A stretch of DNA of 64,000 bases from Streptomyces jumonjinensis. GTDB taxonomy: Bacteria; Actinomycetota; Actinomycetes; Streptomycetales; Streptomycetaceae. Below are positions 27,616 through 55,168 of this stretch, piece by piece (within the stretch, counting starts at the first letter, position 1; every line of letters begins with the position of its first letter). A model generated the notes under the pieces. It was not told where the DNA came from, did no database searches, and worked only from the letters and a program-made list of their open reading frames with translations. The position numbers and the translations under genes are program-made. The stretch is from NCBI RefSeq assembly GCF_009600885.1, contig NZ_VCLA01000157.1, positions 25,760-89,759 on the forward strand, given 5' to 3'.

Positions 27616-28101
27616 TCACCAGCCGGTGAGGTCCATGACCCGGGCGCAGTGCGGGTCGGTGTCGTCGACCGTCATGCGCTCCTCCTTGGCGATCAGGGAC
27701 GGCAGGGCCGCGATGAGGGCGGTGAGCGCGCCGGAGGTCCGTACGTCGGCGGCGACTGCTCCGTCAGCTTCCTCGGTGTCGAAGTACAGGCGCAGCCGGT
27801 TCTTGCCGTTGAGGAGGAAGCCGAGCAGGCGTGGTTCGGGCTGTTCTTCGCGGAAGGCCCGGGCGTGCAGGAAGGTGAGGGCTGTGTCTTCCGGTGTGGG
27901 ATCGGCCGGTTCGAGGCTCGTGAGTTCCACATGCACGAGGGTCATGCCCATGACGCTGCTGATGCTGCGGCTGGGGTGGATGTGGGTTCCGGTGTGGAGG
28001 GTGCGCAGGATTCCGGTGAGGGTGGAGGGCGGGAGGATGTCGTCTCCGTTATCCGTATGCAGGACCGGCATACGCCGGATCCGCGTGCAGAGGGCGTCCA
28101 T
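27616..28101 (-). CDS. Hypothetical protein divergent from radical SAM gene
   Basis: 161 residues from ATG 28101; an ATG ten codons later is possible. The middle (VMGMTLVHVELTSLEPADPT) and LGFLLNGKNRLRLYFDTEEA suggest a compact beta-rich domain. No catalytic motif is seen and I do not recognise the family. It shares a 51-base divergent upstream region with the radical SAM operon, so the two may be co-regulated. Confidence 0.6.
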   Translation of the reverse strand: MDALCTRIRRMPVLHTDNGDDILPPSTLTGILRTLHTGTHIHPSRSISSVMGMTLVHVELTSLEPADPTPEDTALTFLHARAFREEQPEPRLLGFLLNGKNRLRLYFDTEEADGAVAADVRTSGALTALIAALPSLIAKEERMTVDDTDPHCARVMDLTGW

Positions 28102-28152: not shown

Positions 28153-29553
28153 ATGGATCAGGAAATGGCCCGGAGGTCAGCTGTTCGTCTGGCCGGGGCC
28201 GGGGCCGTAGCAGTGGCCGTAAGCGACCAGCGCTTCCACGTCATCGTGCTGTCGAACTTCGCGAGGGGTTTCGACAAGTACGCGTTCGCTTACGGTAAGG
28301 CGGGGATTCCGGAGAGTACCTTCCCCGACCGGTTCCACCTGCTGACCCGTGCGGAGTTGGGAATCGGCATCGGCAAGGCGGGGCGGCTGCTGGACCGTCT
28401 GGCCATTCCGGGCGACCGGCTGCTGGTGCTGGAGACCATGGTGGACCCCGACAAGCTGGTGCCCAACGTGTCGACCGGCCTCGGCATGGAACTGCACGAG
28501 GCTCGCATCCGGTTGTCAGCAGTCCACGAGCTCGACCAGGTAGGCGACGAGTTCGCTCTGCGCCCGACAACCGTCGAGGACGCGATGGCGGCCTCCCTCT
28601 CCCTGCACGGATCGGCGCAGCGTCCCTACGCCGACACGCGACCGCGGACCGTTTCAGTTCTGCCGGTCGCCGTCGCCTGCCAGGCCCGGTGCGCTTTCTG
28701 CTTCTCCTCAGCGTCGATCTCCGCCGACCAGGCGCCGGCACCGGTCCCGTGGGACGCGATCGACTACTGGCTGGAGCGCGCCCGTGCGGCGGGCGCCGAG
28801 CGCGCAGTGATCACCGGCGGCGGAGAGCCCACCCTCATACCGGCCGACCAGCAGCTGCGCCTGGTGTCCGCCTGCTCGGCGATCTTTCCGAAGGTGGTCC
28901 TGATCACCAACGGACACAGGCTGGCGAAACAGGGGCACGCTGACCGGGCCGGCCACCTCGCGGCCCTGAGCGAGGCAGGCCTGAGCGTGCTGGCGGTCTC
29001 CCGGCATCATCATGACGACGACGCCAGCGAGCGGCTGATGATGCTGCGCACACCCGTGAGCTCTGTGATCGACACCTGGCGCGAGGACCGTGACCGCTGG
29101 CCGGGGCTGCGGATGAGGCTGATCTGCGTGCTCCAGCGCGGCGGCGTCGCCACCGCGGCCGATGTCGCCGACTACCTTTCCTGGGCCGCGGATTGCGGTG
29201 TTGAGGAGGTCTGCTTCAAGGAACTCTATGTGTCTACCAGCACGGAGTCGCTCTATTTCGACCGCGCCGCCAACGTCTGGAGCCGAGAGCGCCAGGTTCC
29301 GCTGTCCATCGTCACCGAGCTCGTCGAGCAGCGCGGCTTCGACCTGGCGAGCCGTCTGCCCTGGGGCGCGCCGGTCTACCACGGCAGCTGGGACGGACGG
29401 CCGATGCGGATCGCCGCGTACACCGAGCCCAGCCTGCTCTGGGAACGCACCAACGGGATCGCACGGAGCTGGAACGTCCTGGCCGACGGACGCTGCTACG
29501 CCTCCCTGGAAGACCGGGCCAGCGAGATCGTGCGGGAAGGTGCAGCCGTATGA
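28153..29553 (+). CDS. Radical SAM enzyme of unknown substrate
   Basis: 466 residues from ATG 28153. The first 165 residues are an additional domain (FHVIVLSNFARGFDKYAFAY) without a cluster motif. The radical SAM core follows with C176, C180 and C183 in the order CxxxCxxC (CQARCAFC), GGGEPT at about 222-227, and barrel strands after it. No SPASM cysteine cluster is evident at the C-terminus, but WNVLADGRCYASLEDRA there resembles the end of SPASM-like radical SAM proteins with one Cys. The enzyme cleaves SAM to make a 5'-deoxyadenosyl radical. The ATGA overlap with an aminotransferase gene implies a joint pathway. Confidence 0.8.
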   Translation: MDQEMARRSAVRLAGAGAVAVAVSDQRFHVIVLSNFARGFDKYAFAYGKAGIPESTFPDRFHLLTRAELGIGIGKAGRLLDRLAIPGDRLLVLETMVDPDKLVPNVSTGLGMELHEARIRLSAVHELDQVGDEFALRPTTVEDAMAASLSLHGSAQRPYADTRPRTVSVLPVAVACQARCAFCFSSASISADQAPAPVPWDAIDYWLERARAAGAERAVITGGGEPTLIPADQQLRLVSACSAIFPKVVLITNGHRLAKQGHADRAGHLAALSEAGLSVLAVSRHHHDDDASERLMMLRTPVSSVIDTWREDRDRWPGLRMRLICVLQRGGVATAADVADYLSWAADCGVEEVCFKELYVSTSTESLYFDRAANVWSRERQVPLSIVTELVEQRGFDLASRLPWGAPVYHGSWDGRPMRIAAYTEPSLLWERTNGIARSWNVLADGRCYASLEDRASEIVREGAAV

Positions 29554-30578
29554 GGTTCGAGGAGTTCCAGGAATTCCGGCAGCGCCAACTCAGTGCTTCC
29601 CCGTCGCTTCTGGACGCCGCCGAGACCAACGTGTACCGGGCGCTCGCTCCCATGCGGCCGGAACCGCCGTCCGACATGAGTTCCGACATGCGTACGGTGC
29701 ACCGGTGCGATCTCGCCCGTGCCTGGCTGCGGCACTACATGCTGCCGGAAGAGTGGTCCAGCCGGGCCATGGTCTGCCGGGGGGTCCGGCACGGGCTCAG
29801 CCTGGTGTTCCACTGGCTGCGCGCCGAGGGGGCGCGGCTGTGGCTGCCCAGCGACGTGTACCCGGTGTACTTCGAGCTGGCCCGCGCCGCGGGCCTGGCG
29901 CCCGCGTCCTACCCGACGCTACCGGCACCGGCCCTGCCGAGGTCGCCGGCGGACCACCGGCCCGACTACCTCCTGCTCGCCAACCCCAGCAGACCACTCG
30001 GCCGGTACTGGTCCGATGCCGAGTGCGCCGCGGTGATTTCGTGGCTGCGGGAATCACCACACCGCCGCCTGCTGATCGACAGCGTCTACGATCTGGGAGC
30101 CCCGTTCGCTCCCGGAACACGGCGATTGCTGGACACCGGTCGTGCAGTCCTGCTGCATTCGGTCACCAAGGGGTGGCTGTGGCCAAGAACGTTCGGCGTG
30201 GTCCTGCTGGGCCCGGCGCAAACCGAATTAGCTGAAGCGTTCCGGGCGGATCCGCCGACGTCGGCACAGCTGACGCTCGCCGACCGTCTGCTGACCGAGC
30301 ACACCGACGTGCCCCGGCAGGCCGCCGCCGCCCTGGCCGCACGGGCTGAGCGGCTGTTCGAACGGTTGCCGGACGACGTGCTCGGGGCGATTCCCACGGC
30401 GAGCCGGACGTGTCCCGGCAACTACTTCTTCCCGGTCGAAATCCCAGCCGAGACGCTCCAGCACGAGCACGCCGTGCTCGCCATGCCGGTCAGCGTGTTC
30501 GGGGAGAGCAACTGGTCCGGCTCCATCCTGACCAGCCTTGCAGACGCTTTCGGCCCGACACCGGCGGTGGCACGATGA
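29550..30578 (+). CDS. PLP-dependent aminotransferase, fold type I
   Basis: 342 residues, ATG overlapping the radical SAM stop. Class I/II aminotransferase landmarks are in order: NPSRPLG at 145-151 (PLP-facing Asn), IDSVYD with Asp177, and SVTKGW with Lys207 as the Schiff-base lysine, followed by GNYFFPVEI near the end. It is shorter than the usual 380-400 residues, mainly at the N-terminus. Substrate is unknown. Coupling to the radical SAM protein suggests that it transaminates or decarboxylates the same small molecule or peptide residue. Confidence 0.8.
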   Translation: MRFEEFQEFRQRQLSASPSLLDAAETNVYRALAPMRPEPPSDMSSDMRTVHRCDLARAWLRHYMLPEEWSSRAMVCRGVRHGLSLVFHWLRAEGARLWLPSDVYPVYFELARAAGLAPASYPTLPAPALPRSPADHRPDYLLLANPSRPLGRYWSDAECAAVISWLRESPHRRLLIDSVYDLGAPFAPGTRRLLDTGRAVLLHSVTKGWLWPRTFGVVLLGPAQTELAEAFRADPPTSAQLTLADRLLTEHTDVPRQAAAALAARAERLFERLPDDVLGAIPTASRTCPGNYFFPVEIPAETLQHEHAVLAMPVSVFGESNWSGSILTSLADAFGPTPAVAR

Positions 30579-30584
30579 CACCAC

Positions 30585-30650
30585 TGAATCGGCGCGGACG
30601 GGCCCGTCGGCCGTCATGGCGTTCCGGTGAGGCTGGAGCTGTGCAGAAGG
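30585..30650 (+). pseudogene. Fragment of a second DUF6300-like gene
   Basis: GACGGGCCCGTCG and a 24-base block (30621-30644) match 26423-26435 and 26441-26464 inside the DUF6300-like gene, with six extra bases between the blocks. Reading gives IGADGPVGRHGVPVRLELC. It begins seven bases after the aminotransferase stop and loses similarity after the Cys codon. Confidence 0.6.
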
Positions 30651-37911: not shown

Positions 37912-37955
37912 GACATCGGGTGGGGGCCGGCGACGGCCAGCCCCCACCCGATGTC
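37912..37955. terminator. Shared terminator of nuclease and SUKH genes
   Basis: GACATCGGGTGGGGGC (37912-37927) pairs perfectly with 37940-37955 around a 12-base loop; it overlaps the stop of the convergent gene. Confidence 0.8.
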
Positions 37956-38847
37956 AGCCGGCGAGCGGCGTCCAGCCCTCGGGAGGGTCACCCCGGTACC
38001 CCCACGCCAGACCGCCGTCAATCAGCCCGGGCTCCAGACCGGGGAGAAGGGACGGGGCCTCCAGACGATCCGCCGTCTCCTCCAGATAGACGGACAGCGA
38101 CGCGAACCGGGGCACCCGCTCGCCGAATTCGCCCCACCAGCAGACCTCACCGCTCTCCGCGTCGAGATACAGGCCGGAAGAGGCGTCGACGGAGGTGTAG
38201 GACGCGAACGGAATCCAGTGTGCCTTCCACAGACCATCGCCGGCCGTCTCCATGCGGGCCCGGTACACCCCCATCGCGGCGTCGAGGTCCATCAACGCCC
38301 AGTTGTCCAGCAGGAACACCGCCGGGCCTCCGCCCCGGACCCCCGCGCACAGACGCCACAGAGCCGTCAACGACGGCGGAAGGACCCGGCCGAACGCCCC
38401 CTCCGCCACGGCAAGGTCCTCCTCCCCCGCACCCGGACACAACGTCGCGAACGACGCCGGGGCGTGCGCGGGCAACCACGACTCGACCCGCCGCCACGCC
38501 GCAGCCGCCTGACGCGCCTCCCACTCCCCCAGCCCCGAGTCCGGCGCATCGGCAGGATCTGGCCCCTCAGCGCCGGACGCGAGCGGCCGCGCCGCCTCGA
38601 CGGCCCTGACCTGCACCCGCCCCTCCTCCAACAAGGGCGGGCCGTAGGCGTAGCGAACGATCAGCTCCGGGCAGTCCTCGAACATCTCGCCGTCGACCCT
38701 CACCGCGTACAGAGGCTCGCCGCCCGCCTCCACCGGATCACCTAACTCCGGATCATCCTCAAGCTGCCCGCACACCACCTTCACGGCGTACTCCACGCCT
38801 CTGCCGAGCTCCCTGCACCGCTCCTGCACGTCCGCCGACACATCCAC
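37954..38847 (-). CDS. SMI1/KNR4 (SUKH) family protein
   Basis: 297 residues. Residues 110-290 form the SUKH fold: AWRRVESWLPAHAPASFATL, VAEGAFGRVLPPSLTALWRL, ALMDLDAAMGVYRARM, then SSGLYLDAESGEVCWWGEFG. The first 100 residues are an extra domain with an acidic character. SUKH proteins are the commonest immunity proteins against bacterial nuclease toxins, although many have other roles. The convergent neighbour is a secreted nuclease, which makes an immunity role plausible but unproven. Confidence 0.75.
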   Translation of the reverse strand: MDVSADVQERCRELGRGVEYAVKVVCGQLEDDPELGDPVEAGGEPLYAVRVDGEMFEDCPELIVRYAYGPPLLEEGRVQVRAVEAARPLASGAEGPDPADAPDSGLGEWEARQAAAAWRRVESWLPAHAPASFATLCPGAGEEDLAVAEGAFGRVLPPSLTALWRLCAGVRGGGPAVFLLDNWALMDLDAAMGVYRARMETAGDGLWKAHWIPFASYTSVDASSGLYLDAESGEVCWWGEFGERVPRFASLSVYLEETADRLEAPSLLPGLEPGLIDGGLAWGYRGDPPEGWTPLAG

Positions 38848-43162: not shown

Positions 43163-44031
43163 AGGGTTGTCCCGTAATTGATCTCCGGCGTGCTGGATGA
43201 CCTGTTTGTTTCTTCGTTATCCGGCGAGGGTGAGGTTGTGCAGGCGGGCGATGCCGAGCATGGCGTGGTGGACGCCGTCGCCTTTGAGACGGCAGTCGCG
43301 GAGGATCTTCCATGCCTTCATGCGGGCGAAGGCATGCTCGGCGCGGGCGCGGACCTTGCGGTGGGAGGTGTTGTGGTCCTCTTTCCAGGCGGGGAGTTCG
43401 GACTGGCCGCGTTCGCGGCGGTGGGGGATGACCAGGCCGGTGCCCCGGTAGCCGCCGTCCGCGATCACCGTCGTTCTGCCGACGGCGGCCTTCGCTCCGG
43501 AGAGCTCCCACGCCTTGCAGTCGTTCCGGTTGCCGGGCAGGGGCCTGCCGACGGCGACGACGAGCCTGGTGTCCGCATCGATGACGACCTGGTGATTCGT
43601 CGAGTACCGGTAGTTCTTCGACTTCTCGGCCACCTGATGGTCCCGGGTGGGGACCAGAGTGCCGTCCACGATCAGAACGGTGTCCTTACGGAACCGCTTA
43701 CGCGGCTGGAGCGCAAGCGCCGGGCCGAGATGGTCGACGATGCGGTCCGCCGCCGACTTCGACACCCCGAACAGCGGGGCGAGCTGCCGCAGGGTCAGGT
43801 TCGTCCGCCAGTACGCGGCGACCAGCAGCACACGGTCCTCCAGCGGAAGACTCCACGGCCGGCCCCTGCGCACCGGATCGGCACCCTCCCGCCGCAGCGT
43901 GGTCACCAGCCTGCCGAACTGCCGCGCACTCAACCCGGTGAACGGACCTATCCAGGACGGCTCCGACGCCGTAATCACACCAGCCACAACAAGATCATCT
44001 CACCCGTGACCTGAATTTACGGGACAACCCT
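43163..44031 (-). mobile_element. Complete IS5-group insertion sequence, 869 bp
   Basis: Terminal inverted repeats AGGGTTGTCCCGTAA (43163-43177) and its exact complement (44017-44031) enclose one transposase gene. TA lies directly outside each end within C-TA and TA-G, as expected for a 2-bp duplication in a CTAG target. Confidence 0.85.
43217..43987 (-). CDS. IS5-family transposase
   Basis: 256 residues, intact. An N-terminal helix-turn-helix (LRQLAPLFGVSKSAADRIVD) is followed by the DDE domain: VDGTLVPTR (first Asp), VIADGGYRG (second Asp) and EHAFARMKAWKIL (Glu). It is the only gene of the element and probably active, since both ends are perfect. Confidence 0.9.
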   Translation of the reverse strand: MAGVITASEPSWIGPFTGLSARQFGRLVTTLRREGADPVRRGRPWSLPLEDRVLLVAAYWRTNLTLRQLAPLFGVSKSAADRIVDHLGPALALQPRKRFRKDTVLIVDGTLVPTRDHQVAEKSKNYRYSTNHQVVIDADTRLVVAVGRPLPGNRNDCKAWELSGAKAAVGRTTVIADGGYRGTGLVIPHRRERGQSELPAWKEDHNTSHRKVRARAEHAFARMKAWKILRDCRLKGDGVHHAMLGIARLHNLTLAG

Positions 44032-52909: not shown

Positions 52910-55168
52910 ATGCCATCCTTCCCGACCGTCCCCTCTCAGCCCGCCACCTCCCGACTTCGGTACGAGGTCGTTGGGGCGCAGCCGCGAGAGGGTTTTCCGG
53001 AGCGTTTCACGCTCGACCTGTCCGGCGACGGGCACGCGCACCTCGCCTATGAACATGGACCGACCCGGCGGTCCTGGACCGCGCGCACCGAAGACGTTGT
53101 GTGGAGCCGCTTGTGGAAGGCGGCGGAACGCCTGCCCTCCGACGGTGACCCGACCGCCCGGCCTGCCCAGGAATCGGGCCGCCGTCGCCTTGAGGTGTAC
53201 GGTGGCGCCCCGTTACAGCGAACGGTGTTTTGGAGTGAAGCAGCCGCTGCCGGCGTCGGTGCGCTCTTGGACTCGCTGGTCGCCCAGATCAGCGGCCTGC
53301 CCTTGATTGTAGTCACCAACAGTCTTCCCCCGCTGACGCACCGGAGCCAGGCGACGGCGGAGGACGGTCTGCCAGGGCAGGAGGCCGCCGCTGCCTTCGG
53401 GACGGTCGGCGGGCAGCCGGCGTTCGCGCTGGCCCGCAGCGGCGGCGGCTTCGGCGTCTTCTCGGTCGACCCCCTGAAACTGCTCGGGGAGACCGCCGAA
53501 GCGGGACAGCCCATCCGAGCCCTGGCACTGGGAGCGGATGGCGAGCGCGACCTCCTGCTGACGGGCGGCGACGACAACACCCTGTGGACCTGGGACTTGA
53601 CGGGCGATGAGGGGCTGCTGCACGCGCGAGGAGGCCACGGCGCTGTCCGGGCGGTTGCGACAGGCGGCGTCCTGGACGACGACGAACTCCTGTACTCGGG
53701 CGGCGACGACGGCAACATCTGCGGCTGGGATGGCCGGGATGGAGCCGAGCTCGGCGCACTGACCGGGCACGACCAAGCGGTCAATGCGCTGGCCACCGCC
53801 CGCGTCAGCGGCCTGAACCTGCTCGTCTCCGGCGGAGATGACGGGACGGTGCGGATCTGGAACACCGACACGGGTGAGAGACTGCGCCCCTTCGCTCCGA
53901 AGCTGGAATGGGTCAACGCGGTGGCCATCACCGACGTCCACAGCCGGGGGCTGGTCGCCGCGGCAGGCTCCGACCACGTGGTCAGGGTGTGGGACATCGC
54001 CACCGGCGCCCCGACTCAGGCCCTGTCTGGCCACAGCGCGGCCGTGACCGGACTGGCCTTCCTCGACCTGGAGGACCGAGCGGTCCTGGCCTCATGCTCC
54101 TACGACGGCACGATCAAGACCTGGGACGTCGAGGCCGGGCACGTCCTTCACTCATGGCCCGCCCAGGACGACTGGCCGGCGGCCCTGGCGGCAACCTCTT
54201 CGGCAGAGGGAACCCTCCTTGTCTCCGCGGGCGTGACCGGTGCGGTGCGCGTCTGGGACTCGCACGGCACGGCACAGCAGGTGCTGGCGGCGGATCGCGG
54301 TCCGGTCCAAGCGCTCGCGCTGACCACGTACAGGGAGACGACGACGGCGGCCGCGGGAGGCCTTGATGGCTCGCTCACGCTCTGGGATGTCGAGAGTGCC
54401 TCCGCGCGCTACACACTCGCCCCGGATGACGGCCCCATCACCTCGGTCTCTTTCGGCCCGGCAGGCGACACGGTCATCTGCGGAACCGGTCGAGGCACTG
54501 TCCGGGTGCACGCCACCGCGGACGGAGCACTCAAGCAGGTGCCGACCCCCCACACTGACCGGATTCTCTCCCTCGTCTACCTTCCCCTGGGCGGAGGCAT
54601 CGTCGCTTCTGCTGGCGCCGACCGGACGGTACGCACCTGGGAGACATCCACTGGCCGTCCCCTCCTGCGCCTGCGCGGCCATGAGAGCGCAGTGACGGGG
54701 CTGGCAGCCGGAGAAGCCGACTCGACCACGGTCCTGGCCTCGGCGGACGAGGACGCCAAGATCCTGGTGTGGGACGCAGCATCAGGTCGACGCCTGGCGG
54801 ACCTGCACGCTGCGCGTCCGCTCAGCGCCCTCGCCTTCGGGACCGTGAACGGCACCGGTGTCCTCGCCGCCGCGGAACAGGACGGCCCCGTCCGGGTGTG
54901 GGAGGTGCTCTCAGGGGAGGAGCTGGCGACGCTCGACACCACCGACATGGCTGTCACCACACTCACCGTCTGCACGATCGCGGGCACCGCCGCCGTACTG
55001 GTCGGCACACGCGCCAAGACGGTGCACGCCTGGCAACTGCCCGGGGGAGCCGCGATGGGAATGGTCCCCGTCGAGCAGGTTCCGCTCGCCCTGTCCTTCT
55101 CCTCGACTGGATTCCTGCACGTCGCGGGGAGCGCTGGCCTGACATCGATCCACCACTTCTCATCCTGA
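52910..55168 (+). CDS. WD40 beta-propeller protein
   Basis: 752 residues from ATG with AAAGGAG upstream. The first 135 residues are a separate domain (RYEVVGAQPREGFPERFTLD) that is not WD40. From about residue 190 there are about 12 to 14 WD40 blades, seen as LLLTGGDDNTLWTWDL, LLVSGGDDGTVRIWNT, AAAGSDHVVRVWDI, ASCSYDGTIKTWDV and so on. That number fits two seven-bladed propellers. Such proteins are scaffolds; the partner here is probably the Nudix protein encoded 18 bases upstream. Confidence 0.85.
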   Translation: MPSFPTVPSQPATSRLRYEVVGAQPREGFPERFTLDLSGDGHAHLAYEHGPTRRSWTARTEDVVWSRLWKAAERLPSDGDPTARPAQESGRRRLEVYGGAPLQRTVFWSEAAAAGVGALLDSLVAQISGLPLIVVTNSLPPLTHRSQATAEDGLPGQEAAAAFGTVGGQPAFALARSGGGFGVFSVDPLKLLGETAEAGQPIRALALGADGERDLLLTGGDDNTLWTWDLTGDEGLLHARGGHGAVRAVATGGVLDDDELLYSGGDDGNICGWDGRDGAELGALTGHDQAVNALATARVSGLNLLVSGGDDGTVRIWNTDTGERLRPFAPKLEWVNAVAITDVHSRGLVAAAGSDHVVRVWDIATGAPTQALSGHSAAVTGLAFLDLEDRAVLASCSYDGTIKTWDVEAGHVLHSWPAQDDWPAALAATSSAEGTLLVSAGVTGAVRVWDSHGTAQQVLAADRGPVQALALTTYRETTTAAAGGLDGSLTLWDVESASARYTLAPDDGPITSVSFGPAGDTVICGTGRGTVRVHATADGALKQVPTPHTDRILSLVYLPLGGGIVASAGADRTVRTWETSTGRPLLRLRGHESAVTGLAAGEADSTTVLASADEDAKILVWDAASGRRLADLHAARPLSALAFGTVNGTGVLAAAEQDGPVRVWEVLSGEELATLDTTDMAVTTLTVCTIAGTAAVLVGTRAKTVHAWQLPGGAAMGMVPVEQVPLALSFSSTGFLHVAGSAGLTSIHHFSS

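Follow-up and report, generated by a model that had tools for sequence, protein, structure and literature searches.

The window, a 64,000-nucleotide stretch of Streptomyces jumonjinensis DNA, contains a radical SAM (rSAM) gene that runs into the gene of a short PLP enzyme. Do these two genes belong to one pathway, is the pair complete, and on what kind of substrate would it act? The rSAM reading frame (28153..29553, plus strand, 466 codons as read) matches Pfam family PF04055 (E 1.4e-10, 42.1 bits against a cut-off of 29.5), and the CxxxCxxC codons of its predicted SAM-binding [4Fe-4S] cluster lie at 28678..28701 on the same strand. The PLP enzyme (29550..30578, plus strand, 342 residues) matches PF00155 and no other family (E 9.2e-10, 38.7 bits against a cut-off of 19.7). 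The rSAM stop and the PLP-enzyme start overlap in the four bases ATGA at 29550..29553 (plus strand), as read from the sequence. A preliminary description of this DNA had claimed both frames, the overlap and the motif, and all of them are present.

The same description proposed that the two enzymes share a pathway. We compared the pair across 42 loci: 39 from a pattern-based scan of a species-genome collection, which detects close relatives only (rSAM identity in these loci is 43–95%), two from plasmid records, and the window. The PLP gene adjoins the rSAM gene in 41 of the 42, the exception (L039) being an rSAM 5' fragment only. A four-base overlap joins the genes in 39 of the 40 loci checked (ATGA in 37, GTGA in two; L006 and L039 fall outside this count). 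In the remaining one, L038, a single ORF encodes both domains, with the PLP enzyme ahead of the rSAM part; this is a metagenome-type assembly, where a missed stop is possible. In L083, a further gammaproteobacterium, the two ORFs overlap by 23 bases. Because adjacency, overlap and the single ORF of L038 all point the same way, the coupling of the pair is far beyond chance. A shared pathway is thus well supported, and the reservation that the two genes might rarely be adjacent elsewhere turns out to be false.

A divergent gene of 161 residues (27616..28101, minus strand), with no Pfam match at E ≤ 1, does lie 51 bases from the 28153 start, as described, and had been proposed as a possible partner. 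We rejected this candidate: among 49 loci tested, the gene is present at one, the window's own (L040), and it occurs in genomes that lack the cassette. At E ≤ 0.001, relatives of it occur in 21 of the 150 genomes searched, including S. jumonjinensis, which carries a second copy, 81% identical, on another contig (C201). Thirteen of the 20 other genomes with a relative were searched for the rSAM enzyme, and those 13 gave no strong match. Conversely, one genome (G013) carries the cassette and no relative of the 161-residue protein.

Is the pair, then, a whole unit, as it had been taken to be? The wider set of loci does not support this. A class I methyltransferase ORF follows the PLP gene intact in 16 of 41 loci, each time with a four-base overlap (ATGA in 14 loci, GTGA in L021, and a further one in L027); these loci include a Tenacibaculum MAG and Dyella choica. 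Pieces of the gene remain in three others: L005 has lost an internal part of it, L006 keeps some 27 codons and L050 keeps 84. The other 22 have no methyltransferase, and methylation is therefore not essential. At twelve scored loci without an intact methyltransferase the PLP gene still ends in ATGA, which looks like the ghost of the start of the third gene. On a tree of 38 cassettes, presence and absence of the intact gene needs at least 8 changes (mean after shuffling, 12.2); most forks of this tree are weak (6 of 35 inner branches are starred), and its well-supported branches force only 2 changes. The methyltransferase is present in the outgroup, Dyella, and in the earliest Kitasatospora branch. 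The ancestral unit seems to have been the trio, with the third gene lost repeatedly; that some lineages gained it instead is possible.

The window copy itself seems to be in poor condition. The block homologous to the cassette spans 28222..30586 (plus strand) with 91% DNA identity to locus L031. Likeness to L031 begins three codons past the GTG at 28213, and the start codon of the family is therefore missing; the in-frame starts at 28153, 28165 and 28213 are none of them homologous to it. The described 466-residue rSAM protein is thus correct as the length of an ORF, while its first 23 codons lie outside the conserved protein, which begins at codon 24 and is 446 residues long in most relatives. 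The extra N-terminal domain, said to have 165 residues, has about 140 by the same measure. In the Streptomyces-type set an upstream element, GCATGATG, stands no more than 160 bases before the rSAM gene in 34 of 38 loci, for a chance expectation of 0.007 per locus; it is missing in the window, L017, L026 and L034. At the other end, a stump of the lost methyltransferase (30575..30586, plus strand) consists of a start overlapping the PLP-gene stop and three further codons. The best-scoring of 24 methyltransferase matches in the S. jumonjinensis genome is 34% identical, so the genome has no orthologue elsewhere. Estimates of dN/dS between the window rSAM gene and four relatives range from 0.33 to 0.41, against 0.14–0.31 for nine pairs among the others, the pairs not being independent. 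Because start codon, upstream element and methyltransferase are missing and dN/dS is raised, the window copy is probably a relic, decaying though still open. Decay of the cassette shows elsewhere too: in Streptomyces griseus NRRL WC-3645 (L009:7536-8375), close to 60 codons are missing from within the PLP gene.

The cassette as a whole recurs in changing surroundings. DNA likeness to L031 spans it and ends just outside it at most loci; the conserved block comprises two or three enzyme genes only, and its ends differ between loci. Flanks were long enough for grouping at 41 loci; when those that share 300 bases or more are joined, they form 31 groups by upstream context and 33 by downstream context. 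In the one group for which cassette dS was calculated (L005, L010, L013, L018 and L031), the rSAM gene has a dS of 0.09–0.13, the first syntenic flanking gene 0.30–0.52 (10 of 10 pairs) and the second 0.36–0.58 (6 of 6 pairs), so that the cassette is 2–5 times less diverged than its flanks. In two Kitasatospora groups (L027–L029 and L001/L011/L016/L034) cassette and flanks differ to a similar degree by DNA identity, and the cassette seems to have stayed put; recent transfer is therefore shown for one group only. In the 38-cassette tree, Embleya cassettes nest within those of Streptomyces. No inverted repeats pair the two ends of the cassette, either in L036 (Streptomyces fildesensis, with an intact trio) or in the Dyella block. 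Integration linked to tRNA genes was considered and rejected: 32 loci contained three tRNA-like genes, none of them closer than about 2.5 kb. Elsewhere in the window, a DDE transposase (43217-43987) and a SUKH-1 (SMI1/KNR4) protein (37954-38847) fit a variable chromosomal region; at 52910-55168 there is a 752-residue protein with many WD40-type repeats.

How widely is the cassette spread? A first search of 100 genomes gave ten rSAM matches at E ≤ 0.001, three of them strong (S. jumonjinensis included) and seven weak, to the core domain. In larger samples the enzyme occurs, at E ≤ 1e-30, in 34 of 394 Streptomycetaceae genomes, again counting S. jumonjinensis; among these 34, one gene is in two pieces and one has an internal stop. 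Outside this family it is rare in the samples: 2 of 346 Actinomycetota genomes have it, both of them Streptomyces and one being S. jumonjinensis; so do 2 of 321 from the class of D. choica, that species included, and 1 of 345 from the phylum of the Tenacibaculum MAG, which is the MAG itself. Plasmid carriage was seen on two large linear Embleya replicons and, for a distant relative, on a plasmid of Hymenobacter swuensis. There the rSAM relative (L052:5638-7253) is 30% identical over a third of the query and overlaps a 171-residue gene that is nucleotidyltransferase-like by eye and has no Pfam match. Phage records held no rSAM relative and viral contigs no confirmed one, and PHROGs gave matches to the rSAM core only.

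We then considered what the enzymes themselves reveal. In the rSAM protein the cysteines of the CxxxCxxC motif (C176, C180 and C183 in the window ORF; C156, C160 and C163 in the 446-residue numbering) do not vary in any of the 24 aligned rows. Three further cysteines, C305, C334 and C428, are equally invariant and could bind a second cluster. No SPASM/twitch family model matched, and models of SPASM/twitch enzymes such as PqqE, PapB and MoaA matched the core only, below cut-off; the two-electron rSAM oxidases BtrN, PqqE and SuiB have SPASM/twitch domains, according to the available part of PMC9012708. The missing family match counts against the oxidation step proposed below. The structural model (mean pLDDT 85) has GDGT-MAS (Z 20.4), MoaA (18.5) and SuiB, viperin and BlsE (about 17–18) as its best VIA neighbours. 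GDGT-MAS, MoaA, viperin and BlsE are thus among the closest rSAM folds, at Z of about 17–20 over about 230–275 residues with an rmsd of 3.1–4.1 Å, but they share 10–20% identity, and most align from about residue 136 (the GDGT-MAS rows from 17), so that the fold match barely tests the N-terminal domain. That domain has no Pfam match (best E 0.15). Its motif, HV[IT]VLSNF...DKY, offers a genome-mining handle for the cassette.

The PLP enzyme is of fold type I with the class I/II aminotransferase fold (model pLDDT 91; VIA Z of about 25–27 to class I/II enzymes); its Tenacibaculum member has no Pfam match at E ≤ 0.01. Lys207, Asp177 and Tyr180 are invariant in 20 of 20 aligned rows, and we take the first two to be, respectively, the PLP lysine and the aspartate that meets the PLP nitrogen. 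The presumed PLP lysine (codon 30168..30170, plus strand) aligns with the SK of 3euc. In an ordinary alpha-amino-acid aminotransferase, a C-terminal arginine binds the alpha-carboxylate of the substrate. We presume that its place would be within the C-terminal motif PxSVFGxxxWxGSILTSL, where the 20 chosen rows have no conserved arginine; the enzymes of L016, L021 and L036 have one before the W of the motif. In the Tenacibaculum member (P0005, 292 residues), arginine is absent from the whole stretch beyond residue 152. By the alignment of these 20 sequences and by P0005, the PLP enzyme does not look like an ordinary alpha-amino-acid aminotransferase; the missing arginine fits an acceptor without a free alpha-carboxylate.

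Among NCBIfam models, the methyltransferase scores best against NF041820, the family of daptide methyltransferases, with 97.8 bits where the cut-off is 175. The next-best models (CpaM, MenG/UbiE, UbiG and BioC) belong to other acceptors, so N-methylation is not secure. Its PDB profile matches include 9sot and 9ri2; two N-methyltransferases, CcbJ and the cypemycin N-terminal methyltransferase, are among the better ones.

Using this information, we read the window pair, tentatively, as the decaying remainder, two genes long, of a compact small-molecule cassette that spreads by horizontal transfer and consists of rSAM enzyme, PLP enzyme and SAM-dependent methyltransferase. The comparisons above show the coupling of the genes, their spread and changing flanks, the losses and the residue patterns; each chemical step and the class of substrate we infer, as follows. 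The rSAM enzyme would abstract a hydrogen from an unactivated carbon in some common metabolite of the cell and leave that carbon oxidised, either as a ketone or as an aldehyde, and CO2 may be lost in the process. The PLP enzyme would transfer an amino group onto it, and the methyltransferase would then add one or two methyl groups to the amine. We propose this order of oxidation, amination and N-methylation by analogy with the daptides, in which ketone formation is followed by transamination and dimethylation (available part of PMC10036551).

The cassette probably acts on a ubiquitous small molecule and not on a dedicated peptide, since the block leaves no space for a further coding sequence, the genes around it vary from locus to locus, and the search beside it for a conserved ORF resembling a peptide gene gave none. 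Among short ORFs (18–100 codons, 2.5 kb on each side), none was conserved as a peptide across contexts. A first comparison, which began 900 bases beyond the PLP gene, gave one cluster of 129 ORFs, of which three inspected were Arg-rich; a second used a complexity filter and, at 23 loci scored at that stage as having no intact methyltransferase, started from the end of the PLP gene. Its larger clusters (up to 12 ORFs from nine contexts) are conserved DNA just upstream of the rSAM gene, which is read from either strand and in more than one frame, so that only some 14 residues at the end are shared. The others are groups of two to four members, some in shared synteny; the 8 and 10 largest clusters were inspected.

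These results bear directly on an unlikely alternative, a RiPP-like system in which the target of the trio would be a peptide or protein whose gene lies at another place in the genome, and the rSAM enzyme replaces the daptide oxidative decarboxylase. The best match of the methyltransferase, to the daptide family, would suit it, as would the alignment of the rSAM core with the peptide maturases SuiB, SkfB, PqqE, anSME and others, and the N-terminal rSAM domain could bind a leader. It would, however, have to accommodate unrelated flanks at most loci, the absence of a conserved precursor ORF near the cassette and of any RRE/PqqD-type model among those listed, and an aminotransferase of PF00155 in place of the class III PF00202 of daptides. 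An unlikely reading of another kind would make the PLP enzyme a decarboxylase, a lyase or a C–C-bond-forming enzyme acting before or after the rSAM enzyme. CobD threonine-phosphate decarboxylase is indeed its best NCBIfam match, a weak one (E 7.7e-5) tied with a tyrosine/nicotianamine aminotransferase model (8.2e-5), and its Foldseek list includes CobD/CobC decarboxylases and C–S lyases. The missing carboxylate arginine also agrees with such an activity, and at the position where 3euc has its phosphate-binding arginine the alignment shows a threonine, preceded by a variable residue. Nevertheless, aminotransferases make up 11 of the 13 solved-structure profile matches and most of the 50 VIA rows, which also include ACC synthases.

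Could the substrate be a nucleotide? In D. choica, L035:5373-11121 encodes, in a row, NMNAT-Nudix, NAMPT, rSAM enzyme, PLP enzyme and methyltransferase. The trio forms the downstream half of this run, with the genes for NAMPT and the bifunctional NMNAT-Nudix directly upstream on the same strand across a 75-bp gap. Across 16 Dyella genomes, NAMPT (E ≤ 1e-50) is found in one and the trio in one, the same one. The only relative with matching synteny on both sides (L097) lacks the run: a zinc-ribbon remnant, the tail of the left-hand gene (alignment score 54, against a best of 35 in 200 shuffles), adjoins the right-hand MocR gene. Three other loci share the peptidase side alone with D. choica and are not informative. 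The Dyella run weakly suggests nicotinamide-nucleotide chemistry, and the trio might act on a nicotinamide nucleotide or some other nucleotide, with the PLP enzyme perhaps joining SAM and NAD in the manner of SbzP; MoaA, viperin and BlsE, among the close rSAM folds, are nucleotide or nucleoside enzymes. We consider this quite unlikely. It is a single case, no NAMPT or NMNAT gene was found at the loci of other genomes (many with flanks of only 1.5 kb), co-acquired genes need not share a function, and fold neighbours are no certain guide to substrate. A viperin-like antiviral cassette making a modified nucleotide would account for a patchy, mobile and short operon, and PADLOC pVip models match the rSAM core (E 3.8e-9; 1.3e-10 for the Tenacibaculum homologue). 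That match, however, covers the core only, where TrsS, YydG, PqqE and MoaA models score alike, and with no relative in phage records and none confirmed in viral contigs we regard an antiviral role as highly improbable. Membership in the viperin/pVip family was rejected, NF038283 scoring 34.3 bits against a cut-off of 180.

Returning to the small-molecule cassette, a set so small and tightly coupled, kept from Streptomyces to a Bacteroidota genome, would be expected to make a single tractable product. If the logic of ketone, amine and methylamine holds with rSAM oxidation, it would be a new three-protein route for placing an amine on an unactivated carbon. In the boldest version, which we think quite improbable, the trio would be a minimal pathway, so far without a name, that roams as a three-gene unit between Streptomycetaceae, Gammaproteobacteria and Bacteroidota. 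Its rSAM enzyme, with an N-terminal domain peculiar to it, and a PLP enzyme blind to carboxylates would convert a ubiquitous metabolite of nucleotide type (possibly NAD or NMN) into an N-methylated amine. The window itself, seemingly showing a decaying copy, is of less value.

How does the cassette compare with known systems? The preliminary description knew of no named pathway with this layout, and our survey of the open PMC literature (titles and the starts of abstracts, with subscription papers and most preprints outside its scope) agrees: among the papers listed there was none on the pair or the trio and no characterised cassette of this kind. The logic is of a known kind; the combination of rSAM enzyme, PLP enzyme and methyltransferase, and its roaming as a unit, we did not find described there. 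In butirosin biosynthesis, BtrN is reportedly paired with an aminotransferase. As described in the available part of PMC9012708, BtrN is an rSAM enzyme that carries out a two-electron oxidation of an alcohol carbon, so that oxidation followed by amination resembles the logic proposed for the cassette; it differs in having four Cys ligands on its auxiliary cluster, whereas the cassette enzyme has three extra invariant cysteines and no twitch-type match. SbzP, by the description in the available part of PMC10491745, is a PLP enzyme that joins SAM and NAD; it is a PLP enzyme that can draw on NAD, and NAD-salvage genes adjoin the cassette in D. choica; it is unlike the cassette in that this part of the source mentions no rSAM partner. 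Daptides are made by an oxidative decarboxylase (MpaB/MpaC), an aminotransferase (MpaD) and a methyltransferase (MpaM), according to the available part of PMC10036551. We rejected membership of the cassette in this RiPP class: the methyltransferase falls below the family cut-off, the PLP enzyme belongs to PF00155 and not PF00202, and at the locus the block holds enzyme genes with no precursor or DUF-RRE protein beside them. The cassette thus differs in having no precursor peptide, no RRE protein and, in place of the alcohol-dehydrogenase-type decarboxylase, an rSAM enzyme, and its aminotransferase is of class I/II where the same part of that source gives class III. What it shares with daptides is the proposed order of oxidation, amination and N-methylation, together with a methyltransferase whose best NCBIfam model is the daptide one, at a score short of the cut-off.
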